From: Gammaproteobacteria bacterium
Lineage (GTDB): Bacteria; Pseudomonadota; Gammaproteobacteria; Pseudomonadales; Pseudohongiellaceae
DNA: 64,000 bases
Direction: 5' to 3'
Assembly (NCBI GenBank): GCA_008081045.1
Contig: VMDC01000020.1
Location: forward strand, 62,001 to 126,000
Below the pieces are notes generated by a model. That model was given only the letters and a program-made list of their open reading frames with translations, was not told the origin of the DNA and searched no databases. How positions within the stretch are numbered: position 1 is the stretch's first letter; the number at the start of each line of letters is the position of its first letter. Positions 4,150-19,578 of the stretch are shown here, one piece after another. Position numbers and translations under genes: made by a program.

Positions 4150-5274
4150 ATGCCTCGATCAACACAAAGCGTAGGGGTCGTCATGACTGAGAGTGACGGT
4201 CCCTGTGATGCGCATTCCGTCCAATCCAATTCCGAGTTCTATTTCGTCTATCCCGGCGATCTCGATACTCGCACCGGCGGGTATGCCTACGACAAGCGTC
4301 TGATTGAGGAACTCGGTCTGTTGGGTCTTCGCATCAATCCGGTTTCCCTGCCCCAGTGCAGCCTGGACATGAACCAGAGCGCAAGGCGTAGGGTTCAGGA
4401 AAAACTGGCGGCAATTCCGGAGGGTTCCGTGGTGGTAATGGACGGGCTTGCACTGGGCGTGCTCGACCGCGAAACCACCGAAGTGCGCCATCGCCTGCGT
4501 CTGGTTGCGCTCTGCCATCATCCGCTGGCTCTGGAGTCGGGTCTGAACTCGGCCGAGCAGTCCCGGCTGTTTGAGTCCGAGCGGCTGGCGCTCGCGAATG
4601 TTTACGCAACGCTGGTCACCAGCGACAGCACCCGCCGTATTCTGACAGACGATTTCGGCGTAGGTGAAGACAGCATCACCGTTGCCGTGCCGGGTACCGA
4701 CCGCAGACCATTCGCTGCGTGTACGGGGAGCCCGCCCCGTCTCCTGACCGTGGGGTCATTAACTCGGCGTAAGGCGCACGATGTTCTGATCTCTGCGCTC
4801 GCCGATCTTGCCGCACTGGACTGGGAAGCCCGGTTTGTGGGTGGTGATCACTTCGATGCCGCATGGGCGCAGAGACTGCGTGCGCAGGTGGCTGCAGAAA
4901 ACCTCGGTCATCGTATTCAGTTTGCCGGTCTGGTGCCGGATATCGAACCCGAGTATCAGCAGGCGGATGTCTTCATCCTGCCCTCAAGGTTTGAAGGTTA
5001 CGGAATGGTTTTCGCTGAAGCGCTGTCAGCTGGATTGCCGGTGATTGCTGCGAAAGCCGGTGCAGTACCCGATGTGGTCCCCGGCACAGCAGGTCTTCTG
5101 GTCGCCCCCGACGATCCGGAGGCCTTGGCCGAAGCTGTTCATAAGCTACTTACTACCGCAGGCTTGCGGCAACAGCTTCAACAAGGCGCCAGAGCATGCG
5201 CAGCTGAATTGCCAACCTGGCGGGACAGCGCAGAGAAAGTGTGCAGGCGACTCAGGGAGGTGAGCCAGGCATGA
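4150..5274 (+). CDS. glycosyltransferase family 4 (GT-B)
   Basis: C-terminal LLTVGSLTRRKAHDVLI ... ILPSRFEGYGMVFAEALSAGLPVIAAKAGAVPDVV. Alternative start at 4183. Confidence 0.88.
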   Translation: MPRSTQSVGVVMTESDGPCDAHSVQSNSEFYFVYPGDLDTRTGGYAYDKRLIEELGLLGLRINPVSLPQCSLDMNQSARRRVQEKLAAIPEGSVVVMDGLALGVLDRETTEVRHRLRLVALCHHPLALESGLNSAEQSRLFESERLALANVYATLVTSDSTRRILTDDFGVGEDSITVAVPGTDRRPFAACTGSPPRLLTVGSLTRRKAHDVLISALADLAALDWEARFVGGDHFDAAWAQRLRAQVAAENLGHRIQFAGLVPDIEPEYQQADVFILPSRFEGYGMVFAEALSAGLPVIAAKAGAVPDVVPGTAGLLVAPDDPEALAEAVHKLLTTAGLRQQLQQGARACAAELPTWRDSAEKVCRRLREVSQA

Positions 5275-6089
5275 CGGGCTTCAGTGTGGACTGGTTGAAT
5301 CTGAGGGAAGGTGCTGATCAGCAGGCGCGGAACAGCGAATTATTGCGCGTCGCGGCCACGTTCGCTGCCTCGGGTGGGGATTCACGGGCGGTTGTGGTAG
5401 ATCTGGGTGCGGGCACGGGTTCGACCTACAGAACATTCGGCCAACGTAGCTTTCCAGTTGAATTTACGCCGACCTGGCGCTTTGTTGACAATGACAGAGA
5501 ACTGCTCGGAGAAGCGGCTCGTCGCGCGGATCAAAACCATCTGATTGAAACCTATGAACTTGACCTGAACCAGGTTGCACAGTTACCACTGACAGCAGTT
5601 CGACTGATTACTGCCTCTGCGCTGTTTGATCTGGTCTCGGCCCCATTTATTGACCGCTTGATCGCTGAAGTGGATGCGGCCTCTGCAGGCCGGCCAGTAG
5701 GCATCTATGCGGCGCTTAACTATGACGGTTCAACCTGCTGGGATCCGGTGCATCCACTTGATCAGCAGGTGCTGGAGGCATTCAATGAGGATCAGACCAC
5801 GGATAAAGGGTTTGGGCCTGCGCTCGGGCCTGACGCCTGCAATTATGTCAAACGCACTCTGGAGCAGGCTGGCTTCGGTGTGCAGCTAGCCACAAGCCCG
5901 TGGCAACTCGATGGCAAGGACGCTCAGCTGGTTGCTGAATTGATACAGGGAATCGGCAGCGCGGTGCAGTCATGCCCTGAGCTAGCGCCGGAGGACATCG
6001 CTGACTGGCTTGCGTTCAGACTTGCTCACGCTGCGACTGGCTCTTGTAGAGTGGGGCACACTGATTTGTTGGCTATCCGGGAATCCTGA
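5271..6089 (+). CDS. class I SAM-dependent methyltransferase
   Basis: VVVDLGAGTGSTYR motif I; ATG at 5271 overlaps the GT stop (ATGA), suggesting translational coupling. Confidence 0.8.
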   Translation: MTGFSVDWLNLREGADQQARNSELLRVAATFAASGGDSRAVVVDLGAGTGSTYRTFGQRSFPVEFTPTWRFVDNDRELLGEAARRADQNHLIETYELDLNQVAQLPLTAVRLITASALFDLVSAPFIDRLIAEVDAASAGRPVGIYAALNYDGSTCWDPVHPLDQQVLEAFNEDQTTDKGFGPALGPDACNYVKRTLEQAGFGVQLATSPWQLDGKDAQLVAELIQGIGSAVQSCPELAPEDIADWLAFRLAHAATGSCRVGHTDLLAIRES

Positions 6090-6243
6090 GACAACGGATG
6101 CGCCCTGGGAAATTGACCGAACGGGTCTGTCTGTCTAAGCTGTGTCACTGACAGAACCTATAAGAATAAAGCAAACCTGATGGAGTAACCTGGCGTATTC
6201 CCTACTCGCCGGCCAATCGGGTCGGTCCGTCTACGAAGGAGTT

Positions 6244-6843
6244 ATGATGTCGATCATTTTCTCGCACCGTTCGCTGGTGATTTGGCTGGCGGGATGCGCG
6301 CAGGCCTGGTTTGCCGCAGGCGCTTGTGCTGAAGCAGCGGACTGGCAAATAGATCCGGATCATTTTTCTATCGCCTTCGAGGCTGAACACATTGGTTACC
6401 AGCAGCAGCTTGGCTTTTTCCTGGAGGGTTCGGGTCAGTTCCGCTTTGATCCCGAGACAGATGTACTCAGCAGTGGGCGTGTTGAAATTGCCTCGGACAG
6501 TTTGTTCAGCAATCACGATGCCCGGGACAATCATCTCAAGGGGAGGGATTTTCTGAACGCCAGACGGCATGCTCTGATTGTTTTTGAGGTGTCGGAGTAC
6601 TTTGCTGCTGACGGAGTCTTGCGCGGCAATCTGACGATGCTTGATGAAACTCATCCGGTAGACCTTAAAGTTGTGGTGAATAAACAGGCGGTGTATCCGT
6701 TTGGGCATCGCAAGGAAACGCTTGGCATTTCAGCCAGTGCTGCCATTTTTCGCAGTCAGTGGGGCATGGATTATGGTGTGGCCAATAACATGGTCGGAGA
6801 TGAAGTTACATTGCGTTTCGAATTCGAAGCCATACGACAATAA
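6244..6843 (+). CDS. YceI family protein, exported
   Basis: WQIDPDHFSIAFEAEHIGYQQQLGFF ... ASDSLFSNHDARDNHLKGRDFLNA, with N-terminal signal peptide. Confidence 0.85.
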   Translation: MMSIIFSHRSLVIWLAGCAQAWFAAGACAEAADWQIDPDHFSIAFEAEHIGYQQQLGFFLEGSGQFRFDPETDVLSSGRVEIASDSLFSNHDARDNHLKGRDFLNARRHALIVFEVSEYFAADGVLRGNLTMLDETHPVDLKVVVNKQAVYPFGHRKETLGISASAAIFRSQWGMDYGVANNMVGDEVTLRFEFEAIRQ

Positions 6844-6896
6844 AAATACTATACAGCGACACTTGACCCTATCTTAATAGCCTGCAATGCAGAATT

Positions 6897-6925
6897 TTGA
6901 AGCTGGCAGAATTTACACGTAGAAT
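6897..6925 (+). promoter_or_regulatory. putative sigma70 promoter of ribA
   Basis: TTGAAG - 17 nt - TAGAAT, with ATG only 8 nt past the -10 box. Confidence 0.5.
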
Positions 6926-6933
6926 AAGCAACC

Positions 6934-7578
6934 ATGACTGAGCCGACTGTAAACAGAGTGTCTGAAGCGCGAATCCCGACGGAGTACGGAGAATTCACGC
7001 TTGGCTATTACGAGAACAGCCTTGATGACAAAGCCCATCTGACTTTTCACATGGGTGACATCTCGCACAAATCTGACGTGCTGGTGCGCGTACATTCTGA
7101 GTGTCTGACCGGAGATATCTTTGGTTCGCGGCGCTGTGATTGTGGCGAACAACTTGATCATTCGTTGCGCATGATTGCAGAGCAGGGCGGTGGCCTGCTC
7201 ATTTACCTGCGACAGGAAGGGCGGGGCATCGGTCTGCTACAGAAAATTCATGCCTATAATCTGCAGGACAAAGGGCATGATACGGTTGATGCCAACTTGC
7301 TGCTCGGTCATGCAGCCGATGAGCGCAGTTACATCCTGGCGACGCTCATTCTGAAAGAGTTGAACATCCACTCGGTGCGACTGATTACCAACAATCCAGA
7401 CAAGATTTCAGCGCTGGAGGCTGACGGTATAACAGTCAGTGAGCGGGTGGAGCTGAAAGATTTTATCAACGCAGACAATTCGGATTATCTGATTACCAAA
7501 GTCAGGCGGATGAACCACCTGCTTAACGTGCCCGATGAGGCAGCTCTGCTCGCTGAAGAAATTCATGAGTCTGAATGA
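6934..7578 (+). CDS. ribA: GTP cyclohydrolase II, stand-alone (no DHBP synthase domain)
   Basis: HSECLTGDIFGSRRCDCGEQL zinc motif; RQEGRGIGLLQKIHAYNLQDKGHDTVDAN; TNNPDKISALE. Confidence 0.95.
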   Translation: MTEPTVNRVSEARIPTEYGEFTLGYYENSLDDKAHLTFHMGDISHKSDVLVRVHSECLTGDIFGSRRCDCGEQLDHSLRMIAEQGGGLLIYLRQEGRGIGLLQKIHAYNLQDKGHDTVDANLLLGHAADERSYILATLILKELNIHSVRLITNNPDKISALEADGITVSERVELKDFINADNSDYLITKVRRMNHLLNVPDEAALLAEEIHESE

Positions 7579-8284
7579 TCAGGTTGAAAACTGGTTGCGG
7601 GAGCGAACTGCGGCCTTCTCTTCTTCTGACAGACCTTTTATCACGCTGACTTATGCCCAGAGCTGGGACGGCAGCATCACTACCCGGTCCGGAGAGACGC
7701 TCTGTTTTAGCGGGCCGGAGGCCACCCGCCTCACCCATCAGCTTCGCAGCCTGCACGATGGCATCTTGGTGGGTATCGGAACCGTGCTGAGCGATGATCC
7801 ACAGCTGACCGTACGAGAGTGGGAGGGAGACAATCCTCAGCCCATCGTGCTGGACAGCCAGCTCCGCACGCCAGCGAACGCAAAAGTTTGCCACCATCCT
7901 GATAAACGATGCTGGATCTTGACCGTGAACGGGCTGAGTCAGGCTCTGAGCCCTGAGGCAACGGTGATCCGGTTGGACGGCGCTGGCAGCGATGATGCGG
8001 AAGTTCCCCTGCCGCGGGCGATGGCACTGCTCAGGGAGCGTGGCATCCGTTCCCTGATGGTCGAAGGCGGAGCAGCGGTCATCACCTCTTTCCTCAAAGC
8101 AGAGCTGGTTGACGCTCTGGTGCTGACGCTGTCACCAAAACTGGTGGGCGGTTACAAGGCGGTTGATGAACTGCTGGGCGGTGGCGACAGGCATTCCCCC
8201 GGCATTACGTCGGTTCATTCCTGTCAGGCCGGTGATGACGTTGTGGTCTGGGGGGACCTCCAATACGGCGGACACTCGTCATGA
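7565..8284 (+). CDS. RibD C-terminal-type reductase domain protein, no deaminase domain
   Basis: PFITLTYAQSWDGSITTRSGET ... LRSLHDGILVGIGTVLSDDPQLTVR ... LMVEGGAAVITSFL. ATG at 7565 overlaps ribA by 14 nt. Confidence 0.9.
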   Translation: MSLNDQVENWLRERTAAFSSSDRPFITLTYAQSWDGSITTRSGETLCFSGPEATRLTHQLRSLHDGILVGIGTVLSDDPQLTVREWEGDNPQPIVLDSQLRTPANAKVCHHPDKRCWILTVNGLSQALSPEATVIRLDGAGSDDAEVPLPRAMALLRERGIRSLMVEGGAAVITSFLKAELVDALVLTLSPKLVGGYKAVDELLGGGDRHSPGITSVHSCQAGDDVVVWGDLQYGGHSS

Positions 8285-9315
8285 AGTCACAACAACTCTG
8301 GTTTACCGGCCCACACTCGGTTGAGGTGAGAGAGAAAGAATTGGAAGTCTCCGGGGCTCGCGATGTGCTGGTGAGAAATGTCTGCTCAGCCATCAGCGCC
8401 GGGACTGAGATGCTGGTGTTCCGAAATCAGCTTCCTGATTCCCTGGCTCTGGATGAAAGTATTGAGGCGCTGTCCGGCCAGGCCGTGCAGTATCCGCTTC
8501 AGTATGGTTATGCCTGCGTCGGAAAGGTTGAAGCAATCGGGGAAGACGTTGAACCGGACTGGTTTGGTAAAACGGTATTTTCGTTTCAGCCTCACTGCAG
8601 CAGTTTTGTTGCCAGCCCGGCGGCCCTGATTCCGGTGCCGGCGGATATCGATCCCTCTGCTGCAGTCTTTCTGGCGAATATGGAAACAGCCGTGAATTTT
8701 CTGCTGGATGCCTCGCCCAAGGTGGGTGAACGGGTACTCATTGTCGGGCAGGGTATCGTCGGTCTGCTGACTTCAGGGTTGCTTGCCCAGTTTCCGCTCG
8801 CCGGTCTGTTTGCCGTGGAAAGTATCGCTGACCGACAGCGCCGGGCTGAACAGATTGGCGTAAACCGGGTGTTTGATATCAATCAGCCGGACGAATTGGC
8901 TGAACTTCACAACGTCCTGCGGCCGAATGAACAGTACGGGGGCGCGGATCTGATCATTGAAGTGTCCGGCTCTCCTGAGGCGCTCAATCTGGCAGTTGAT
9001 CTGTGCGGCTATGCGGGGCGGATTCTGGTGGGCAGCTGGTACGGGACCAAGCGCGCTGCAATCAATCTGGGCGAGCGTTTTCATCGCAATCGAATGCAGA
9101 TTGTCTCGTCTCAGGTGAGCTCTATCGCGCCTGAAAACAGCGGCCGGTGGGATCCGGGGAGGCGGTTTGAGGTTGCCTGGGAAATGATCAGGCGATGTCA
9201 GCCAGAACAGTTCATTTCCCATCGATTTTCGCTGCCGTCTGCCGGGCAAGCCTACGAGTTACTCGACAAGAACGCCGGGGAAGCCTTGCAGGTAGTCTTC
9301 GACTATGGCCGTTGA
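8281..9315 (+). CDS. zinc-type alcohol dehydrogenase-like oxidoreductase (MDR superfamily)
   Basis: ISAGTEMLVFRN; YGYACVGKVEAIGEDV; VGERVLIVGQGIVGLL; ATGA overlap with the preceding gene. Confidence 0.85.
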   Translation: MKSQQLWFTGPHSVEVREKELEVSGARDVLVRNVCSAISAGTEMLVFRNQLPDSLALDESIEALSGQAVQYPLQYGYACVGKVEAIGEDVEPDWFGKTVFSFQPHCSSFVASPAALIPVPADIDPSAAVFLANMETAVNFLLDASPKVGERVLIVGQGIVGLLTSGLLAQFPLAGLFAVESIADRQRRAEQIGVNRVFDINQPDELAELHNVLRPNEQYGGADLIIEVSGSPEALNLAVDLCGYAGRILVGSWYGTKRAAINLGERFHRNRMQIVSSQVSSIAPENSGRWDPGRRFEVAWEMIRRCQPEQFISHRFSLPSAGQAYELLDKNAGEALQVVFDYGR

Positions 9316-9446
9316 TCAGGCAGACTACCGACCGCGGGTTCAGGTGAGGGTGCTGAACAGGTCAGCGTTGCCGTTGTCCCCTGTCAAACGAAATGCCGAC
9401 CCGTTGTGACGGGCCGATCCACCAATTACCAATCGAGGAAACTTTG

Positions 9447-9824
9447 ATGTACACAGTGTCAGTAAAGCAGGATCTCATCGCTCAGCATTATCTGATCGGG
9501 GGAGACTGGGGCGCGGAAAATCAGCCCCATTCCCACCATTATGAGGTAGAAGTCAGACTGGAGTCGGCAGAGCTCGACCAGCATGGTTATCTTGTCGATA
9601 TTGTTAAGATAGAAGAAGAGCTGCAGGCGGTAGTGGATTATTTTGGTGACAGCATGCTGAATGACCTGCCGGAATTTGCCGGCTTGAACCCGAGCATCGA
9701 GCACTTCAGTCGCATCGTCTGTGAAAAGATGCTCTCCGGCATTGCACCTCCCGGCACCGGGCGATTCACCATCCGAATCTGGGAAAACGCGACCTGCTGG
9801 GCCGCCTATGGCAAGGATTATTGA
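9447..9824 (+). CDS. 6-pyruvoyl-tetrahydropterin synthase / QueD-like protein
   Basis: MYTVSVKQDLIAQHYLIGGDWGAENQPHSHHYEVEVRLES ... GYLVDIVKIEEEL ... LNPSIEHFSRIV ... WENATCWAAY. ATG at 9447, not the longer ORF start. Confidence 0.82.
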   Translation: MYTVSVKQDLIAQHYLIGGDWGAENQPHSHHYEVEVRLESAELDQHGYLVDIVKIEEELQAVVDYFGDSMLNDLPEFAGLNPSIEHFSRIVCEKMLSGIAPPGTGRFTIRIWENATCWAAYGKDY

Positions 9825-10810
9825 TCAATCGATCTAGAATTAAGAGTGGGCAGAACAAATGCACCACTGAGCAACAAGCTCAGATCGCGCACCCGCATCA
9901 ACACCACCACGCTGGCTGCCATGCTCAGGGGTATCCCCAGAGCCTGAAATGACCAGAACAAACCCGCTTCTACCGAACCGATGCCGCCCGGCAAAGGCAG
10001 CAGAAAGGCCAGGCGCATCACGGTAAAAAGCAGGATAAAGTCCGTGCCGTCGAACGGCACCTGCGCGAGACCCAGAAGAAACCAGAACTCAACAATCATG
10101 ACCGCCCAGGCCAGACAGGAGGCGAGCATCGCGAGGCCCAGGGCGCGGCGATGGTCTGCAGTCAGCCTGCGAAGTTGGTGGCTAATCTCATCCCGGTGTT
10201 CGCCGAGTCTCTTTAGGCGAGGATGCTGTTGCCAGTGTTCTACCTGACGTCGGATAAACCGCCGTAGCCACATGGGCCTGACTACGAGCGCCGAAACTGC
10301 ACCGACCATCAACAGCACAATGCCGAACAAACCTGCGGAAAGGAGACTCCAGTTCATGCCGGGGGTTGCCCCGGAGCCCAGCAATAACAGGACGGCAACG
10401 AGCAGAACGCTGAAATTCACAAACAGCTCAAAGAACCGGTCGAGACCCACTGCCAGCAGCGCCGTCGGTCCCGGAATACGATAACGACGCCACAGCCAGA
10501 GCACCTGAAGCGGTTCGCCGCCGAACTGAGGTCCGGGAGTGACAAAACTGATCAGAGCGCCTGCCTGACGGACCCCCAGAATCTGCAGGAGGCTGATACC
10601 GAGACCCAGAGCGCGGGTCAGAATGCACCAGCGCATGGCCAGAAGAACCAGCACGATCAGATTGAGACCGATCCAGACTGCCCAGTCTGTCAGTTGCAGT
10701 GATGCGACGGCGAGCGGGAAATCTGCCAGGGGCAGTCGGGAGAAGATGTAGCCCGCCAGCAGCGCAGAGATCAGCCAGGTGAGCGTGGCGATGATGGTGG
10801 AATGTTTCAA
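9818..10810 (-). CDS. lysylphosphatidylglycerol synthase TM region / flippase-like integral membrane protein
   Basis: Multiple TM segments; GGEPLQVLWLWRRYRIPGPTALLAVGLDRFFEL and PLPGGIGSVEAGLF are typical of this family. TTG start at 10810 overlaps the upstream stop. Confidence 0.82.
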   Translation of the reverse strand: MKHSTIIATLTWLISALLAGYIFSRLPLADFPLAVASLQLTDWAVWIGLNLIVLVLLAMRWCILTRALGLGISLLQILGVRQAGALISFVTPGPQFGGEPLQVLWLWRRYRIPGPTALLAVGLDRFFELFVNFSVLLVAVLLLLGSGATPGMNWSLLSAGLFGIVLLMVGAVSALVVRPMWLRRFIRRQVEHWQQHPRLKRLGEHRDEISHQLRRLTADHRRALGLAMLASCLAWAVMIVEFWFLLGLAQVPFDGTDFILLFTVMRLAFLLPLPGGIGSVEAGLFWSFQALGIPLSMAASVVVLMRVRDLSLLLSGAFVLPTLNSRSIDQ

Positions 10811-11985
10811 GCGCCGTCGTACCGATTGATCCAGTGACTGTCTTCTTGCCACAGACAGAACTTGCCACTGCCGAGCAGCATGGACCACACAACGCAGCAA
10901 AACAGCACAGTGTCCACGCCGTCCATCGGGTTTGAAATGTAAAACCAGCCAAGAAGCCCGATCAGAAGCAGGCAAAAATAGCGCCCGGCTATGCCCAGTA
11001 AGACCATCGTGCCGGCCAGCGCAAAGTTGCCCAGCAAAATGATGCTTGGCCAGACAGCGCCTCCGATGACCACAGGCGGGAACCCGACTCGCCACAGGGT
11101 AAAGGCAAGTAGCGTAATGATCGCTAAACGCAATCCCGGCTGCAGGACGGTATGACTGAACAGAGTCAGTCGGTCGAAACGGAGACGAGTGACTTCTGAA
11201 TCTCTTTCCAGGTGACCGCTTACCACCAGCCAGTCAATGACAAAGCCTGTCAGTGTCGGCAGCATAAAAGCAAAGCCTGCTATTCGGGTAACCGGCGGGT
11301 AAAACAAGGGCCACAGTGCCACCACCAGATAGCCCATTTGAAATCCGGCCCATGCCCGGCGATGCATGGCAGGAGGCAAAGGATAGATGGGCAGACCGCG
11401 CATGCGTCTGACTGACAGACCCGCATGGAACAGGTAGTAGGCAGCACCCATCAGCAGATAGGACCAGTGAACCTGACCATAGCTCCACGCCAGACCGGCA
11501 GCGACCGCCATGCCGAGCGCATCGGAAACCGTGTCCAGTTCATTGCCCAGCTGACTCATTTGTCCTGTTCGTCGCGCAACGAAGCCATCGACACGGTCCA
11601 GCACAGCGCCAAAAAAATAAATCATGCCCGGTAGCCAGGCTAACCACGCGCCTTCTGGCCAGGCTTGAAACAGAAAACCCCCGGTTGCGGCGATCAGCCA
11701 GGAGCGCAGAAGCGTCAGGCGGTTGCCCCAGCCCAGTTGGGCATACAGAGCAGATTGCGGCTCTGCGCGGTTCAGAGTCAGGCGTCTGGCCGTTTGAAAA
11801 TAGATGAACAGCCACAGCACGGTACTCTGTGCCAGCCACTGCAGCGAGGCGGGAGTTCCCCAGACGGCTGCCAGCCAGAGTGCACCGAGGCCGAGGGTGA
11901 ACAGACCGCCCACTGTGAGACGCATGAGTTCCTGACCAAGGGATTGGATTCCTAGAGACTCGTCGTGGCTCATTGGCGGGGACAT
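10807..11985 (-). CDS. CDP-alcohol phosphatidyltransferase family protein
   Basis: Complete motif DG(FV)AR(x8)G(x3)D(x3)D in DRVDGFVARRTGQMSQLGNELDTVSDALG; multiple TM helices. Confidence 0.9.
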   Translation of the reverse strand: MSPPMSHDESLGIQSLGQELMRLTVGGLFTLGLGALWLAAVWGTPASLQWLAQSTVLWLFIYFQTARRLTLNRAEPQSALYAQLGWGNRLTLLRSWLIAATGGFLFQAWPEGAWLAWLPGMIYFFGAVLDRVDGFVARRTGQMSQLGNELDTVSDALGMAVAAGLAWSYGQVHWSYLLMGAAYYLFHAGLSVRRMRGLPIYPLPPAMHRRAWAGFQMGYLVVALWPLFYPPVTRIAGFAFMLPTLTGFVIDWLVVSGHLERDSEVTRLRFDRLTLFSHTVLQPGLRLAIITLLAFTLWRVGFPPVVIGGAVWPSIILLGNFALAGTMVLLGIAGRYFCLLLIGLLGWFYISNPMDGVDTVLFCCVVWSMLLGSGKFCLWQEDSHWINRYDGA

Positions 11986-12162: not shown

Positions 12163-14109
12163 TCAGGGCAGTGCGTAAGCGACCAACTGTGCGGGATTAC
12201 CGCTGCCGCCAACGAACATCGCCAGGTATTGCTTGCCATCATGCTCATAGGTGAATGGCAGACCCGTCTGATTGTCCGGCAGGTCCAGTTCAAAGAGTAT
12301 CTCACCCGTGGTTTTGTCGACTGCGCGAAAAATAGGGCTGGCCCCGGCTCCGCCGGTGCCTTCGCCGACAAACAGCAGTGTTTTGGTGAGTAACACGCCA
12401 GACCGGGTCGGGATACCTGTCCGGGGAACATCAATGCCCTCGAGCAGAGGGTGGTTTTTGATGCGCTCCGGGGTATCGGCGTTGGCTATCCACCACAGAT
12501 GCTCACCGCTGTTCATATCGATTGCAGTGACCCTTCCGTAGGGCGGTTTGACAATTTCCAGGCCCTGAACCCGGGGCGCGCGTACGCCAAATCCCTGACT
12601 CAGATCGATGTCAGAATCAGGGTTCTTCGCCAGAGCGAGAACCTGAAGCTGGGTTCTCGAAGGGACGTAAACAATGCCGGTTTCCGGGTCGAATGCTGAG
12701 TGTTCCCAGTTGGCGCCACCGGTCGATGAGGGCAGACTCAGCAAGCCGCGGGTACCGTCGGGATGATCCTGGAGCGACGGTGGCGTAAAAATGGTCCTGC
12801 TGAGCCTAAAATCCTGTACCGCTTCCAGCGCCATTGCCCTTAACTCGGGCGTATAGTCAATCAGATCGTCCTCAGTGAAGCCCTGGCGATCGAATGCTGC
12901 CGGCCGCGTGGGAAAAGGCTGGGTGGGCGAATACCACTCTCCGGGCACATCACCCTGCGGGACAGGCCGTTCGACAATGGGCCAGATCGGTTCGCCGGTG
13001 AGCCGGTCAAAGGCATAGATCCAGGCCTGCTTGGTGACTGACATGACAATTTTCCGGCCATTCGGCAGGTCCGCAATAATAGGTGCATTGGGCACGTCCC
13101 AGTCCCAGATATCATGATGGATGAACTGATAGTGCCACTGCCGTTCACCGGTTTGGACATCCAGCGCGACTATCCCGCTGGAAAACAGATTGTCACCGTG
13201 GCGATCGCCGCCGTAGTAGTCACCGGTCGGGTCCTCGACAGGGAGGTAAACATGTCCCAGTTCAGGATCTCCTGATATCGGGGCCCATACCCCGGAATTG
13301 CCGGTGATGTCGTTTCCGCTCAACCAGGATTCATAGCCGTATTCGCCCGCTTCCGGGATCGTGTGAAACGTCCAGAGCAGCTCGCCGGTATGAACGTCAA
13401 AGCCACGGATATCCCCTTTGGTATTGAACTTTGATCGGGGCCTTCCGCCGGTGCGATGGGCCGCACCGACGACAATGACGTCATTCATCACAAACGGCGG
13501 CGCCGAGATGCCGATGTCCGGGTACGGATAGCGGGGATCATCCGCATTACGCAGCCCCTGATAAAGATCGACAATGCCGTTCTCACCAAACGCCGCGTCA
13601 GGTATCCCGGTTTCAGCATCCAGTGAAACCATCTGGTAACCCGGAGAAATGTCTATTACCCGCTGCTTGTCACCCTTGCTGTAAAATGCGACACCCCGGC
13701 CCGGCCCCTTGCGAGGCGCTTCATCGTAGCGGTCACCTTCATCGTAGCGATACAGCCACAGCACCTGTCCGCTGGTGGCATCGAGAGCCACTACGTTACG
13801 GGTGTTGGCGATATTGGCATAGAGAACACCATTGATTTCTAGGGGCGTGGAAGGGTTGGCGTAATCTACGGTCGTGCCGAAGTTTTCTGTAGAAAATGAC
13901 CAGGCCAGTTCCAGTTCGCTGACGTTGTCCGCATTGATCTGATCCAGCGGTGAATAGCGATGCGCCCAATCGCCTCCATAATAAGTATTCCAGTCACCGT
14001 CGTTGACCGTAGTGCTCTGCTGGCCCAGGACCGGTGTTAAGGGGCTGGCAGTCAGCAGAGCCAGCGACAACGGCGCGAAAGAAAGGACGTTTTTTATTTT
14101 TATTGTCAT
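12163..14109 (-). CDS. PQQ-type quinoprotein dehydrogenase (beta-propeller)
   Basis: WNTYYGGDWAHRYSPLDQINADNVSELELAW; repeated propeller blades such as VVALDATSGQVLWLYRYDEG; signal peptide. Confidence 0.9.
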   Translation of the reverse strand: MTIKIKNVLSFAPLSLALLTASPLTPVLGQQSTTVNDGDWNTYYGGDWAHRYSPLDQINADNVSELELAWSFSTENFGTTVDYANPSTPLEINGVLYANIANTRNVVALDATSGQVLWLYRYDEGDRYDEAPRKGPGRGVAFYSKGDKQRVIDISPGYQMVSLDAETGIPDAAFGENGIVDLYQGLRNADDPRYPYPDIGISAPPFVMNDVIVVGAAHRTGGRPRSKFNTKGDIRGFDVHTGELLWTFHTIPEAGEYGYESWLSGNDITGNSGVWAPISGDPELGHVYLPVEDPTGDYYGGDRHGDNLFSSGIVALDVQTGERQWHYQFIHHDIWDWDVPNAPIIADLPNGRKIVMSVTKQAWIYAFDRLTGEPIWPIVERPVPQGDVPGEWYSPTQPFPTRPAAFDRQGFTEDDLIDYTPELRAMALEAVQDFRLSRTIFTPPSLQDHPDGTRGLLSLPSSTGGANWEHSAFDPETGIVYVPSRTQLQVLALAKNPDSDIDLSQGFGVRAPRVQGLEIVKPPYGRVTAIDMNSGEHLWWIANADTPERIKNHPLLEGIDVPRTGIPTRSGVLLTKTLLFVGEGTGGAGASPIFRAVDKTTGEILFELDLPDNQTGLPFTYEHDGKQYLAMFVGGSGNPAQLVAYALP

Positions 14110-14174: not shown

Positions 14175-16463
14175 TTAGTCAATGACACCCCGATTGACCA
14201 GAGCCCTCCGGAAGTTCTCACCAACTTGTGATCCCTCCCGATAGAGCACGGCGGGAGTGCCAATCGGTGCTGGTACGACAATCGGACTGTGGCTGCCCTG
14301 ACTGGTATATCGCTGGCCGGTGAAAGCATGTTTGTAGTGACCTGCAGGCAGACGTATCTCAATCTCGTTAACACCCGGGTCCAGCACCGGTGCGAACCAA
14401 AGCTCGGAACCAACAAGCATCTGTTGATAGGACAGCGTCCAGAAATTCCGGTCCTCCGGATAGTGGAGGAACGGATGTCGGACAACTGGCCAGCCGCGCT
14501 CGGCCGCCTCGCTGACCAGCGATTGCCGATAGTCGTGCCAGGCATTGTAGACATTTGAAAATCGGGCGATGTGGCGCAAAGTTTCCTGATCAGTATCGAA
14601 TTGATGTGACCAGTCGGGCCGCAGACCCTCATGCGTGCGGAATATGGACTGAAAAGCGCCGAGTTCAATCCAGCGCAGCATCAGTTCCTTGGTCCGACGG
14701 ATCGAAACGGGCGCCCCTAGCGCCTCTGCTTCGAGGGACAGCCATCCGCCGACGTCGCTGTGATTAAACGCGAAACCGGAAAGCCCGCTGGTCAGCAGCG
14801 CCGTAACTGAAGTTTTTATGCCGTCATAGTTGTCCCAGTTTGACGCCTGATCGCCTGCCCAGAACAGGGTGCTGTGCCCCGGACTTCGGGTGTAGGCAGC
14901 GCGCATGAAAAAAACAGCCTCGTCACCCATACCGGCTTCTTCGATGGCTTCACGGTTCAGGCTGGCCCAGTATTCCGGATATCGATTGTGGTTTGCCGTC
15001 GGGTTGCTGCCGTCGAAAAGCTCGGCATTCAGCGGTAAAGCCTCACCAAAATCCGCCATCCATCCGGACAGACCGACGCCCAGCATCTCTTCTTTGATGA
15101 CGGCCTTCATCCACTCTCTGGCGTCAGGATTGGTTACGTCCAGCACGTAGGCCAGAAAATTTGCGCCACCTGTTGTCGCCAGAGAGCCGTCGCTGGTGCG
15201 GATCAGATATCCCCGATCCCGTGCCTCCTGATACAGATTGCGGCGAAAGGCATCCTTGCCAGCGCTCAGGACATCGTGGAAATAGGGGTTGATATAACCC
15301 ATGACGCGAATGTCATCGGTCTGCAGAGTCCCGACCATGTCCTGCCAGCGCGTGTACCGGCTGTCATCCAGCTCCCAGTTCCACCAGAGTCTGAAGCCCT
15401 GGGCGACTTCGCGCTGCCCCTGCCAGTCCTGCATCCACATGGCGGAAAGCGTGGCTTGCTCTTCCTGTAGGGCTGACACAGCTTCCAGTACGCGGTCAGT
15501 CCCGCCCTGAATGCCCAGAATCAGTCCTTTGGTTGCCCAGTCCGGCAGTGCCCGCATACGTCCTGAATAGGCGGTATACCGTTCAATAAGCTCCAGCGGA
15601 GAGTTTCCGACAATGAGTCGCGCCTGCAGCTCATTGGCATAGGTCTGCATCACAATCTGATCGTCCCGGCGCAGATCGAACACCGAATATTCGGCATTTT
15701 CCAGCATCAGGGAACGTATTTCCGTGGTGATGAAGTGGGGAATTGGCGCGTAGGTTGAATACCATTCTCCGGCCGCGCTGATGCTTCTCTCATCAAACCA
15801 GTCAGTTAACGGCTGGGCGCCCCGGGAGAGACCCTGTTCGTCTACCATGATCGGGATGCGTGAGCCTTTGAAATCGAAAGCGCTGTATTGCTCGCCAAAG
15901 CCGAAGACCCGCTCATCGCCCGATGAGGCGAATGCGAGGCCGGTTCTGCCGATGGACGAGTGGCTCACGCGCAGGCGCATTTGCAGCTGGCCTACATCGG
16001 CCTGAGTCAGAAGCAGCTCATATGGCACTGCGCCGATCTCGCCACAGGACAGTTCTCCTGTGATTGTCAGGATTCCACTGCTGAGCGAATCCGCATCGAC
16101 TGTATGGGCGTCACATTCGAGGGTGGTGTTTTCGATCATGTGACTGTAGCCGGTGCGAGGTTCAGCAGTCACTGAGGCGCCTGCGGCAAGGACAAACCCG
16201 GCCCCGGGCTGACTTTGCCAGTAAACCCGCTGTTCATCGTTGGCTGCAGAGATGGTCAGTCTGGCCCCGTCGGGGCCGGATGCCAGCCAGGCGACGCGGA
16301 AGTCGCCCAGCATATGCGTCCAGGAAGGCTGCTCAGGGTCACTCGCCCTGAGCATAGGGGCGGCCACCTCAGGTGCCGCGTCATTCATAAACTGCGCGCT
16401 GGCCGGTTCAGCGAGAAGCACCAGCGCCCAAATAGTCCACAGACTGATCCGGCCTTCAGACAC
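14175..16463 (-). CDS. GH31 alpha-glycosidase, YihQ (sulfoquinovosidase)-like, exported
   Basis: LILGIQGGTDRV, MWMQDWQGQREVAQGFRLWWNWELD, GWMADFGEALP (nucleophile), FWAGDQASNW (acid/base). GTG start at 16463 proposed before signal peptide VSEGRISLWTIWALVLLAEPASA. Confidence 0.85.
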   Translation of the reverse strand: MSEGRISLWTIWALVLLAEPASAQFMNDAAPEVAAPMLRASDPEQPSWTHMLGDFRVAWLASGPDGARLTISAANDEQRVYWQSQPGAGFVLAAGASVTAEPRTGYSHMIENTTLECDAHTVDADSLSSGILTITGELSCGEIGAVPYELLLTQADVGQLQMRLRVSHSSIGRTGLAFASSGDERVFGFGEQYSAFDFKGSRIPIMVDEQGLSRGAQPLTDWFDERSISAAGEWYSTYAPIPHFITTEIRSLMLENAEYSVFDLRRDDQIVMQTYANELQARLIVGNSPLELIERYTAYSGRMRALPDWATKGLILGIQGGTDRVLEAVSALQEEQATLSAMWMQDWQGQREVAQGFRLWWNWELDDSRYTRWQDMVGTLQTDDIRVMGYINPYFHDVLSAGKDAFRRNLYQEARDRGYLIRTSDGSLATTGGANFLAYVLDVTNPDAREWMKAVIKEEMLGVGLSGWMADFGEALPLNAELFDGSNPTANHNRYPEYWASLNREAIEEAGMGDEAVFFMRAAYTRSPGHSTLFWAGDQASNWDNYDGIKTSVTALLTSGLSGFAFNHSDVGGWLSLEAEALGAPVSIRRTKELMLRWIELGAFQSIFRTHEGLRPDWSHQFDTDQETLRHIARFSNVYNAWHDYRQSLVSEAAERGWPVVRHPFLHYPEDRNFWTLSYQQMLVGSELWFAPVLDPGVNEIEIRLPAGHYKHAFTGQRYTSQGSHSPIVVPAPIGTPAVLYREGSQVGENFRRALVNRGVID

Positions 16464-17748
16464 TGTAGCGAGCCAAGCCTTCTTCGTCCAAATTGCAGCC
16501 AATACCCGGTCGATCGGTGAGCAGGAAATCGCCCGCTTCCCAGACAAAAGGTTCCTGAATGATTTCGTCGAAGAAACCGGCCGATTTATAAATGCTTTCC
16601 TGAATGAGGAAGTTCGGAACATTGGCGCAGATTTGGATAGCCGCAGCGGTGATGATCGGCCCTCCCCAGATATGCGGCGCCATCAGCACATAATTCACTT
16701 CCGCCAGCGTTGCGATTTTCTTGCAGGCCGTGATTCCGCCAGCGCTGCCTAAATCAGGTTGTGCAAAAGCGCAGGCACCTTCCGCGAACAGGTTCTGGAA
16801 TTCATGTGGTGATACCAGCCGCTCACCGGTTGCGATTGGGATAGAGGTTTCCCGCGCGATTTCACCCATCTCCTTAAAGTTGCGTGGCGGGCAGGGTTCT
16901 TCGAACCAGAGGGGGTCATAGGGCTCCATGCGTTTGGCCAGTCTTACGGCCGCGGAGGGTGTGATCTGTCCATGTGTCCCAATGAGGATGTCTGCCTGTG
17001 TTCCGATTGCGTTTCTGATCGCTTCACAGGCGCGTTCTGTGTGGTCATATTCGGCCTGGGTCAGTTCCCAGGGTGCGCCGGTTGCACCGCCGTCTCTGGA
17101 TTGCGGAATCGGATCGAACTTCAGGCCAGTAAAGCCCTCATCCACGAGGCGGGCGGATTGTTCAGCGAGCGCTTCCGGGCGTTGAGTCCAGTTCCGGATG
17201 GTTTCCGCACCGGCGGCCATGTTCACGGTGTCATATATATAGGTGTACGTGCGGATCCGGTCGCGATAGGCGCCACCGAGCAGGCTGTAGACGGGGACGC
17301 CGTGATGCTTGCCGACAATGTCCCACAGGGCCGTATCAAACGCACTGATCACCCCAAACCTCGCGTAATCGGCATGCTGATGAGTGAGCCCTCGGACCAT
17401 GCGATGGTACAGCGTTTCCGGCTCCAGTGGGTTCTTGCCTTCAAGATATCGGGCGAAGGTTTCCTGAATCATGAGCTTGTAGCTGCCGGTCAGTCCGCCA
17501 AACGCGTTGAGCACGGCAGTTTCTCCCCAGCCCACCAGTCCGGTATCGGTTTCAAGCTTCACGAAAAACCAGGTGCCTCCGCCCCACTGAGGCGGCGGCG
17601 TCCTGATTACATAAGGCGTGACTTTGGTCAATTTAGGAGCCGAGTTGATACTGGTGCTGGCGCGCCCGGTCTGCGCGAATGCACGCGTAGCCGGAACCGC
17701 CATAGCCAGACCGGCGGCCTGAATGAAATGTCTGCGGTTTTGATTCAA
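16456..17748 (-). CDS. enolase-superfamily dehydratase (mandelate racemase/muconate lactonizing-like), Tat-like signal
   Basis: NRRHFIQAAGLAMAVPATRAFAQ leader; GLKFDPI; LWFEEPCPPRN; PIATGERL; QPDLGSAGGITACKKIA. TTG start at 17748 proposed; the track ORF is too long. Confidence 0.82.
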   Translation of the reverse strand: MNQNRRHFIQAAGLAMAVPATRAFAQTGRASTSINSAPKLTKVTPYVIRTPPPQWGGGTWFFVKLETDTGLVGWGETAVLNAFGGLTGSYKLMIQETFARYLEGKNPLEPETLYHRMVRGLTHQHADYARFGVISAFDTALWDIVGKHHGVPVYSLLGGAYRDRIRTYTYIYDTVNMAAGAETIRNWTQRPEALAEQSARLVDEGFTGLKFDPIPQSRDGGATGAPWELTQAEYDHTERACEAIRNAIGTQADILIGTHGQITPSAAVRLAKRMEPYDPLWFEEPCPPRNFKEMGEIARETSIPIATGERLVSPHEFQNLFAEGACAFAQPDLGSAGGITACKKIATLAEVNYVLMAPHIWGGPIITAAAIQICANVPNFLIQESIYKSAGFFDEIIQEPFVWEAGDFLLTDRPGIGCNLDEEGLARYSV

Positions 17749-17886
17749 GAGGCTTGCTCCTCCGGAGCTTGTTGTTCTTGTTAGAGTGAAAGCAGAATAA
17801 TAGGGGTGAACCGAAAAATACAGTGGTTTACACTCAAACGGTCCGACTGCAAAAGTACAAATAAACAACAGGGGAAGAGGAAAAAA

Positions 17887-19578
17887 ATGAAACGCCGACG
17901 CCGTAATGCTTGGTCTGTAGCCCTGAGCCTCACGCTGCTGTTCTCTCACTTTGCCAATTCGCAAACCGGTGAACGCCCCAATGTGGTGCTGATTCTTGCT
18001 GATGATCTGGGTTTTACCGACATAGCACCGTTCGGCAGCGAGATTGATACACCAAACATTGCAAGACTGGCCGCCTCCGGGCTGTCGTTCACCAACTATC
18101 ACACGGCAGCGAACTGTGCGCCCGCCCGTGCCATGTTGCTGACGGGGGTAGATAGCCACCGCAATGGCGTACCCAACATTCCAGAGTCGATTCCGCCAGA
18201 GCAGCTCGTCTATGATCATTATCAGGGCGTGTTGAGCCAGAACGTGGTGACGTTGGCCAGCCTGCTGCGCGGCAGCGGTTATCACACCTACATGACCGGA
18301 AAATGGCACCTCGGCCACACTCCGGAATTGCTGCCGTCAGCCCGGGGCTTTGAGCGCACAATCGCAATGGCTGACACTGGAGCGGACAACTGGGAACAAC
18401 GCACCTATTTGCCGATCTACGATGAAGCGCATTGGTATGCAGATGGTGAAAAGCATACGCTGCCAGATGATTTCTACTCTTCCGAGTACTTTATTGACAA
18501 GACTATTGAGTTCATCAGTGCGAATGAGTCGGACGATAAACCGTTTTTTGCTTATATCCCCTTTCAAGCTGTCCACATGCCAGTGCAGGCACCCCGGGAA
18601 TTTTCAGATAAATATGCTGGCGTCTACGACCAGGGCTGGACTGTCATGCGTGAGCAACGGAGACTCGCTGCTGAGGAGGCTGGCGTAATACCGGAAAACA
18701 CAGAAGTTATAGTGACACCTGGCACTCTGGATTGGAATGCTCTTACTGAAGAGCAGAGAGAACATCATGCGAGACGCATGGAGGTCTATGCGGGAATGGT
18801 CGATGCGATGGACATGCACATCGGGAGGTTGATGACCTATTTGGAGAGTATAGGAGAATATGAAAACACGATTTTCATATTTACTTCTGATAACGGTGCT
18901 GAGGGTTCACCGTTGATTAGTCCGACCGGGAACTCTGTATTGGATCCTTGGTTCGAAAGGGTCGGGTATGAGACCGGTATTGAGAACTTAGGGGAGAAAG
19001 GATCATGGGTCGGCATTGGTCCAAGCAATGCAACAATTGCCGCTTCACCGCTGGCCTACTATAAATTTCATGCGAATGAGGGTGGTCTTCGCGTGCCACT
19101 GGTCATGTCAGGCCCGGGCATTTCCCAGCGCGGACAGCTGAGTGACGAATTTGTCTTCGTGACGGATCTCGCGCCAACCATACTCAGCCTTGCCGGAGTG
19201 AATGATCATGGGGGTAGCTGGCAGACTCGCGAGGTAGAGCCAATCGTGGGCAAAGATTTCTCCAGCTACCTGCAGGGCCGGGCGGGTCCAATCCACACCG
19301 CGTCAGAGCCGATAGGATACGAAATGGGTGGCAGTGGCGCTCTCTTCAAAGGCGACTACAAGATAGTGATCAATAAATTTGAACAGAATGAGTCCGAATG
19401 GCATCTTTTCAACATCAAGACTGATCCCGGTGAAGCGAATGACCTGGCTGAGGTGGAGCCAGAATTGTTGGCTGAGATGCTGGCCGATTACGAACAATGG
19501 GCGTCGAGCAACAATGTCCTGCCCATGCCAGAGGGATATAACCGGGCTCGAACCATCCTGCCCGGGCTCAGGCGCTAG
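17887..19578 (+). CDS. sulfatase (formylglycine-dependent, type I arylsulfatase-like), exported
   Basis: RPNVVLILADDLGFTDIAPFGSEIDTPNIARLAASGLSFTNYHTAANCAPARAMLLTG with CAPAR FGly motif; TGKWHLGH; FTSDNGAEG. ATG at 17887 after an AG-rich RBS. Confidence 0.93.
   Translation: MKRRRRNAWSVALSLTLLFSHFANSQTGERPNVVLILADDLGFTDIAPFGSEIDTPNIARLAASGLSFTNYHTAANCAPARAMLLTGVDSHRNGVPNIPESIPPEQLVYDHYQGVLSQNVVTLASLLRGSGYHTYMTGKWHLGHTPELLPSARGFERTIAMADTGADNWEQRTYLPIYDEAHWYADGEKHTLPDDFYSSEYFIDKTIEFISANESDDKPFFAYIPFQAVHMPVQAPREFSDKYAGVYDQGWTVMREQRRLAAEEAGVIPENTEVIVTPGTLDWNALTEEQREHHARRMEVYAGMVDAMDMHIGRLMTYLESIGEYENTIFIFTSDNGAEGSPLISPTGNSVLDPWFERVGYETGIENLGEKGSWVGIGPSNATIAASPLAYYKFHANEGGLRVPLVMSGPGISQRGQLSDEFVFVTDLAPTILSLAGVNDHGGSWQTREVEPIVGKDFSSYLQGRAGPIHTASEPIGYEMGGSGALFKGDYKIVINKFEQNESEWHLFNIKTDPGEANDLAEVEPELLAEMLADYEQWASSNNVLPMPEGYNRARTILPGLRR

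Follow-up and report, generated by a model that had tools for sequence, protein, structure and literature searches.

A conserved gene set for a putative decorated pterin

The genes described here, found in a 64,000-nucleotide stretch of DNA from a Pseudohongiella genome of 2.75 Mb that is 96% complete (GenBank assembly GCA_008081045.1, contig VMDC01000020.1, positions 62,001 to 126,000; hereafter, the window), look like an undescribed pathway that would convert GTP to a pterin-like molecule to which a sugar and a methyl group are added and which may be anchored in the membrane. Along one strand, the window carries genes for a GT4-family glycosyltransferase (GT4), a methyltransferase (MT), a YceI-like protein, a stand-alone GTP cyclohydrolase II (GCH II), a RibD_C reductase of the RED type, an MDR dehydrogenase and a PTPS-fold protein, and the genes for a flippase-like membrane protein and a CDP-alcohol phosphatidyltransferase converge on this run. 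The comparative evidence supports a scheme in which GCH II would feed the deaminase-less RED, with the MDR and PTPS-fold proteins acting next and the GT4-MT pair decorating the product, and in which the two membrane genes are part of the set. An earlier note on this DNA, made from the sequence alone, had proposed a specialized branch off riboflavin/pterin metabolism; both ways in which this proposal could have failed, namely a neighborhood without conservation and module ribA/ribD genes that are the only copies serving riboflavin, were followed up, and the outcomes reported below support it.

Using the PTPS-fold protein as the query, a scan of 84,980 genomes yielded 48 loci, to which plasmid searches added further ones. 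The genes for GCH II, RED, MDR, PTPS, GT4 and MT come together again in Anaerolineae, in precisely this order, which we count as matching the proposed order of reactions. Part of the six-gene set recurs in Methylococcaceae, Holophagaceae and deltaproteobacterial metagenome-assembled genomes, and plasmid loci were found in haloarchaea, Agrobacterium, Neorhizobium, Methylosinus, Rhodobacteraceae, Thiodictyon, Streptomyces and Microbacterium. All eight of these families of the window are also encoded at the Agrobacterium pAt locus, though arranged differently, and MDR, PTPS, GT4 and MT form a single run in Alphaproteobacteria, Actinomycetota, Thiodictyon, haloarchaea and Chloroflexota. Because the set recurs in several phyla and in both prokaryotic domains (Chloroflexota, Methylococcaceae, Alphaproteobacteria, Actinomycetota and haloarchaea), its grouping in the window is not due to chance, and the neighborhood conservation on which the earlier note made its proposal depend extends far beyond related genomes.

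Among the 66 loci with enough flanking sequence, MT and MDR are present in 61 each, GT4 in 59, RED in 49 and GCH II in 38. Of the two membrane genes, that for the CDP-alcohol enzyme is found in 30 loci and that for the flippase-like protein in 27. Not all of these loci are independent of one another, and some of them served as seeds for the profiles and hence match by design; loci outside the seeds were also recovered. When Pseudohongiella is excluded, 21 of 57 loci have the gene for the CDP-alcohol enzyme no more than 9 kb away, where chance was assumed to give 2.4% (p ~1e-19), and the flippase-like gene lies near the module also in Chloroflexota, Agrobacterium, Streptomyces and Microbacterium. 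The MT profile matches 31 of 391 well-assembled Pseudomonadota genomes; all the matching loci that were opened for context are in a module except the one in genome G472, which is no module and was rejected as a member. No description of this gene set was found in the literature searched (open access only), and none of the terms '6-pyruvoyl', 'GTP cyclohydrolase II' and 'gene cluster' occurs in a 2026 review of pterin signaling.

The front end and its relation to riboflavin synthesis

The window GCH II (positions 6934-7578, plus strand; PF00925, GTP_cyclohydro2, 219.6 bits; TIGR00505, 250.5 bits, over the cut-off) keeps the three zinc cysteines and the catalytic tyrosine; it is paralogous to the canonical copies, which lie on contig C1 of the same genome. 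A formyl-retaining enzyme was considered for the window and rejected in view of this tyrosine. The RED-type protein (7565-8284, plus strand; PF01872, 147.8 bits) matches RibD_C over residues 34-238 of 249, with no other family matched and no deaminase domain; it scores over the cut-off of TIGR00227 and below the equivalog cut-off of TIGR01508 (121.7 vs 186.45 bits).

The module contains no genes for the deaminase, RibB, RibH or RibE. As to the second copies that the earlier note proposed to look for, the module ribA and ribD are extra in the window genome, where ribD, ribBA, ribH and another ribA are located together on contig C1; separate genes for a QueD-type PTPS and for FolE are on contig C7. 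Lumazine synthase (ribH, PF00885) was found in none of the 13 module-bearing Chloroflexota genomes and in all 14 controls; in the Pseudomonadota bearers that were tested it is encoded, at a site outside the module. Exactly one GCH II is encoded in each of the 13 Chloroflexota bearers, and its coordinates place it in the module in 12 of them and on another contig in the remaining one (G161). Among these 12 genomes is one single-record chromosome (CP070639.1), and the completeness of the other 11 is not given. Because lumazine synthase is missing, the Chloroflexota module GCH II cannot serve riboflavin. Neither result refutes the proposal of the earlier note. The module is not riboflavin synthesis.

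The first enzyme varies between lineages. In the haloarchaeal loci, the GCH II slot is occupied by the non-homologous GTP cyclohydrolase IIa (PRK02240, 316 bits), and two Streptomyces loci, alone among the loci with GCH II, encode an enzyme with methionine in place of the catalytic tyrosine, along with a creatininase-family gene. The archaeal deformylase ArfB belongs to the creatininase family, and SCO6655, which bears the tyrosine-to-methionine substitution, reportedly stops at the formamide; the pairing in Streptomyces is what one would expect were the formyl group removed in a step of its own. The three front ends would thus converge on the same diaminopyrimidine.

The MDR dehydrogenase and the PTPS-fold protein

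The MDR dehydrogenase (8281-9315, plus strand) is BchC-like, with matches to ADH_zinc_N and BchC (62 bits). The fold neighbors of its structural model (pLDDT 90) are threonine, butanediol, galactitol-1-phosphate, sorbitol and idonate dehydrogenases, and this modeled polyol or secondary-alcohol dehydrogenase fold supports a predicted oxidation of a secondary alcohol; within this branch of the MDR family, alcohol oxidation has a precedent in the BchC-like enzymes. The protein shows SxxSxGTE and GY where Cys and GHE are usual, and many Arg, His and Lys residues are conserved, most fully in the first of the two types of module distinguished below.

The PTPS-fold protein (COG0720; PF01242, 87.1 bits) is encoded at 9447-9824 on the plus strand, its start being better placed at the ATG at 9447, where conservation begins. 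Its homologues fall into two clades. In type A, to which the window protein belongs, the three zinc histidines are present and Glu stands in place of Cys within the motif ExxxH[SA]HH; H32, H46, H48 and E42 (window numbering from 9393) are invariant in 69 aligned type-A sequences. Type B has GPAQxxHGA, with HGA lacking the third histidine. Neither type has any of the published motifs, which are CxxxHGH for PTPS-I, CxxxxxHGH for PTPS-II and ExxHGH for PTPS-III (PMC5041015). The window protein reads ExxxHSHH and scores 45.9 bits against the TIGR03367 cut-off of 89.25, which sets it apart from PTPS-I (QueD); it contains no CxxxxxHGH; and compared with PTPS-III it has Glu at -4, Asn at -3 and Ser/Ala for Gly. 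A PTPS-III folate bypass, an early favorite on account of the Glu replacing Cys, was dropped because this Glu is one position off ExxHGH.

Decoration and membrane genes

The tailoring pair opens the run in the window, with GT4 (4150-5274, plus strand; Pfam Glyco_trans_1_4, 118.6 bits) as its first gene and MT, a class I S-adenosylmethionine-dependent methyltransferase with a weak match to Methyltransf_25 (5271-6089, plus strand), as its second; for the latter, the ATG at 5271 is probably the start in preference to the GTG at 5241. GT4 adjoins MT in most loci. The window GT4 contains the EX7E motif (FEGYGMVFAEAL), and 55 of 69 homologues have a simple pattern for it intact. Matches of GT4 in the PDB are generic for the family and so gave no acceptor; tetrahydrobiopterin glucosyltransferases are among the distant ones (5ze7, 9v0l). 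The AlphaFold2 model of MT (pLDDT 91) has a small-molecule methyltransferase fold, and its fold neighbors, such as OxaG, RoqN and histamine methyltransferase, are uninformative as to the acceptor beyond this class.

The flippase-like protein (LPG_synthase_TM; PF03706, 113 bits; TIGR00374, over the cut-off) is encoded on the minus strand at 9818-10900, with an uncertain 5' end (the open reading frame extends to 11095), and the CDP-alcohol phosphatidyltransferase (PF01066, CDP-OH_P_transf, 55.1 bits) at 10807-11985 on the same strand. The catalytic motif of the latter, D..DG..AR(x8)G...D...D, is intact in the window protein and in all 33 module homologues. A lipid link is inferred from this enzyme, from the flippase-like gene and from the PlsC-like acyltransferase of some Anaerolineae loci.

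Several lines of evidence link the genes of the set. GCH II and RED are a single protein in eight loci, as are GT4 and MT in two (L117 and L118). In 146 relatives, the genes for PTPS, MT and the CDP-alcohol enzyme tend to be found in the same genomes (Fisher p 1e-28 and 6e-30, the latter for PTPS with the CDP-alcohol enzyme), with p-values inflated by the kinship of these genomes, and MT is accompanied by PTPS in all 35 cases. Pairwise identities resolve two co-evolving blocks, one of the core and membrane genes (Spearman 0.66-0.86) and the other of GT4 and MT (0.77), with a correlation of only 0.25-0.50 between the two. The glycosylation, methylation and membrane linkage suggested in the earlier note gain support from these fusions, co-occurrences and correlations, the product and the lipid link being predictions still.

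In phylogenetic trees, the window MDR and PTPS belong to type A (support 100/100), and the window MT lies inside type B, as the sister of Agrobacterium and Neorhizobium (99/93). This topology indicates that the window module is a recombinant of a type-A core with a type-B MT, and such recombination suggests that type-A and type-B cores probably make compatible products.

A proposed pathway and its alternatives

We lean toward the view, which we regard as somewhat probable, that the module encodes a dedicated pathway independent of riboflavin, in which GTP is converted, via RED and MDR in place of the Amadori step, to a decorated molecule of the pterin type. GCH II would open GTP to 2,5-diamino-6-ribosylamino-4(3H)-pyrimidinone 5'-phosphate (DARPP), RED would reduce C1' to give the ribitylamino compound, and MDR would oxidize the C2' hydroxyl to a ketone. 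On chemical grounds, this ketone could condense with the 5-amino group, closing the ring to give 7,8-dihydroneopterin 3'-phosphate, so that RED and MDR together would take the place of the Amadori step of GTP cyclohydrolase I with no net redox change. The PTPS-fold protein would bind the pterin and complete the ring closure or process the side chain; GT4 would then add a sugar and MT methylate the sugar or the ring, and the membrane pair may link the product to a lipid and carry it across the membrane. A bolder version, which we put forward tentatively and hold to be possible rather than probable, is that the module is a pterin route free of GTP cyclohydrolase I, proceeding by GCH II (or GTP cyclohydrolase IIa with a deformylase), C1' reduction and C2' oxidation to a membrane-anchored, glycosylated and methylated pterin common to bacteria and haloarchaea and perhaps acting as a redox cofactor that the cytochrome b561 of some loci serves.

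A number of observations weigh against this pathway. GTP cyclohydrolase I (folE) is encoded in 28 of 32 bearers, in which dihydroneopterin could arise in the usual way; folE is not among the module genes, and no match to it was found in four module- or PTPS-bearing genomes (G149, G150, G152 and G154), FolE2 not being tested. MDR lacks the usual catalytic zinc ligands, with S39 and Y77 in their place, invariant in both types (the positions being equated by motif), and the predicted alcohol oxidation is drawn from the fold and from the BchC precedent. Canonical PTPS chemistry cannot hold in both types, to judge by the sequences, because type B lost the third zinc histidine, and zinc-dependent chemistry was dropped as a universal step for this reason; zinc-free T-fold enzymes acting on dihydroneopterin exist, namely FolB and FolX, so that zinc-free ring closure or side-chain processing is possible. 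One locus, L118, pairs a creatininase-family gene with a Tyr-type GCH II, making the correlation imperfect and weakening any strict link of that gene to the Met-type enzyme. Finally, GT4 is not near some loci (Methylotuvimicrobium, L097), and more than half of the loci lack CDP-alcohol or flippase-like genes within 9 kb.

The alternative that we take most seriously, although we consider it unlikely, is that the product keeps the ribityl chain, as a flavin-like or lumazine-like pteridine or pyrimidine, with MDR acting at another position or on a later intermediate and the PTPS-fold protein serving as a cyclase or binding enzyme. GCH II and RED are exactly the ribityl-forming front end of riboflavin-type pathways, and the loss of the zinc ligand in type B means that dihydroneopterin side-chain chemistry is not required. 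However, the module has no RibB/RibH-type gene for the second carbon unit, the adjacency of MDR and PTPS together with the T-fold points to a pterin, and the fold neighbors of MDR are polyol dehydrogenases. Distinctly less probable is that two separate functions share one locus, a pteridine pathway (GCH II, RED, MDR and PTPS) and a glycolipid pathway (GT4, MT, the CDP-alcohol enzyme and the flippase-like protein). CDP-alcohol enzymes and flippase-like proteins work in ordinary lipid metabolism, which would suit such a division, as would the separate evolution of the GT4-MT block and the absence of GT4 near some loci; against it stand the single MDR-PTPS-GT4-MT runs of five lineages, the co-evolution of the two membrane genes with the core and not with GT4, and the fact that MT never occurs without PTPS in the 146 relatives.

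Two readings from standard cofactor metabolism seem to us highly improbable. Paralogous ribA and ribD genes that boost or replace ordinary riboflavin synthesis would account for the presence of two riboflavin enzyme families, GCH II and RibD_C, but this explanation was rejected given the separate rib operon on contig C1 and the 13 Chloroflexota bearers that keep the module without lumazine synthase; moreover, it offers no role for MDR, PTPS, GT4 and MT. The same low probability attaches to a folate or queuosine bypass in which the PTPS homologue is QueD or a PTPS-III feeding folate synthesis. The annotation of this homologue as 6-carboxytetrahydropterin synthase in database records and the replacement of the catalytic Cys by Glu speak for it, whereas the motif ExxxH[SA]HH differs from those of PTPS-I, PTPS-II and PTPS-III (PMC5041015), the window genome has its own QueD-type PTPS and FolE, and the glycosyltransferase and methyltransferase are left unexplained.

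The window locus and neighboring genes

Pfam and NCBIfam searches assigned all nine window genes to families and bear out the families and positions given in the earlier note. Its overlaps are real as well: ATGA at 5271-5274 between GT4 and MT, 14 nucleotides at 7565-7578 between GCH II and RED, and ATGA at 8281-8284 between RED and MDR. At the convergent end, the PTPS and flippase-like genes do overlap tail to tail, by 7 nucleotides, but their stop codons are adjacent, with none shared, and not overlapping as had been stated. The YceI-like periplasmic protein (6244-6843, plus strand; Pfam YceI, 115 bits), which the earlier note had included in the gene set, is found in the cluster only in Pseudohongiella; it was rejected as a core gene and is probably a genus-specific insertion. 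Downstream of the cluster, genes identified by eye as encoding a PQQ-type dehydrogenase, a glycoside hydrolase and a sulfatase (12163-14109, 14175-16622 and 17806-19578) recur near the module only in Pseudohongiella relatives.

Other genes accompany the module in particular lineages. The PlsC-like acyltransferase and a small DUF7475-like protein are encoded with Anaerolineae modules (L069, L071, L080, L045, L047, L059 and L061), upstream of GCH II or between MDR and PTPS. In Thiodictyon and other Pseudomonadota loci of type B (L086, L093, L119, L120, L124, L126, L127 and L128), a cytochrome b561 gene is within the module or adjoins it, and RED is often its neighbor. A gene annotated as mdoH (membrane glucan glucosyltransferase) adjoins MDR in Methylosinus and Neorhizobium (L094 and L096), sugar kinases of the PfkB or ribokinase type flank two Rhodobacteraceae modules (L101 and L097), and in L101 an inositol monophosphatase-family gene lies beside GT4.

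Relation to known systems and implications

The module shares its first two enzyme families with the riboflavin pathway (GCH II and the RibD reductase), with reduction preceding any deamination as in the archaeal and fungal RED; it differs in lacking the deaminase, RibB, RibH and RibE, in the MDR and PTPS that follow, and in its occurrence in Chloroflexota without lumazine synthase. Bacterial pterin glycosides such as cyanopterin and limipterin are sugar-bearing pterins, as proposed for the module product; their routes start from GTP cyclohydrolase I and, to our knowledge, do not use GCH II, RED, MDR or a CDP-alcohol enzyme. The PTPS of one Streptomyces module locus is an orthologue (266 bits) of the PTPS homologue SCO6650 of Streptomyces coelicolor (PDB 3d7j), and the GCH II of that locus has methionine in place of the catalytic tyrosine, as is reported for the GCH II-like SCO6655. 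We know of SCO6650 and SCO6655 only as orphan proteins; relatives of the former are now placed in a conserved pathway, of which the window has the type-A version with a zinc site. The module PTPS belongs to the same T-fold family as QueD, PTPS-II and PTPS-III, with the three zinc histidines and conserved glutamates in type A, but types A and B fit none of the three published motifs (PMC5041015). Archaeal PTPS-III relatives are thought to act on dihydroneopterin monophosphate (PMC5041015), so the monophosphate may be the substrate there, in the same form as proposed here; these relatives have another PTPS motif and serve tetrahydromethanopterin synthesis.

Routine annotations carried by most of the module genes ('6-carboxytetrahydropterin synthase', 'zinc-binding alcohol dehydrogenase', 'RibD family protein') suggest queuosine or riboflavin metabolism and mask a conserved pathway. 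If the proposed scheme is correct, the module would represent an entry into pterin chemistry that is independent of GTP cyclohydrolase I and would give microbes of soil, marine and hypersaline habitats an undescribed metabolite that is decorated and perhaps anchored to lipid. It would also provide a role for the orphan SCO6650-type proteins, and GCH II would no longer be read as a sign of riboflavin capacity in Chloroflexota that apparently are unable to make riboflavin.

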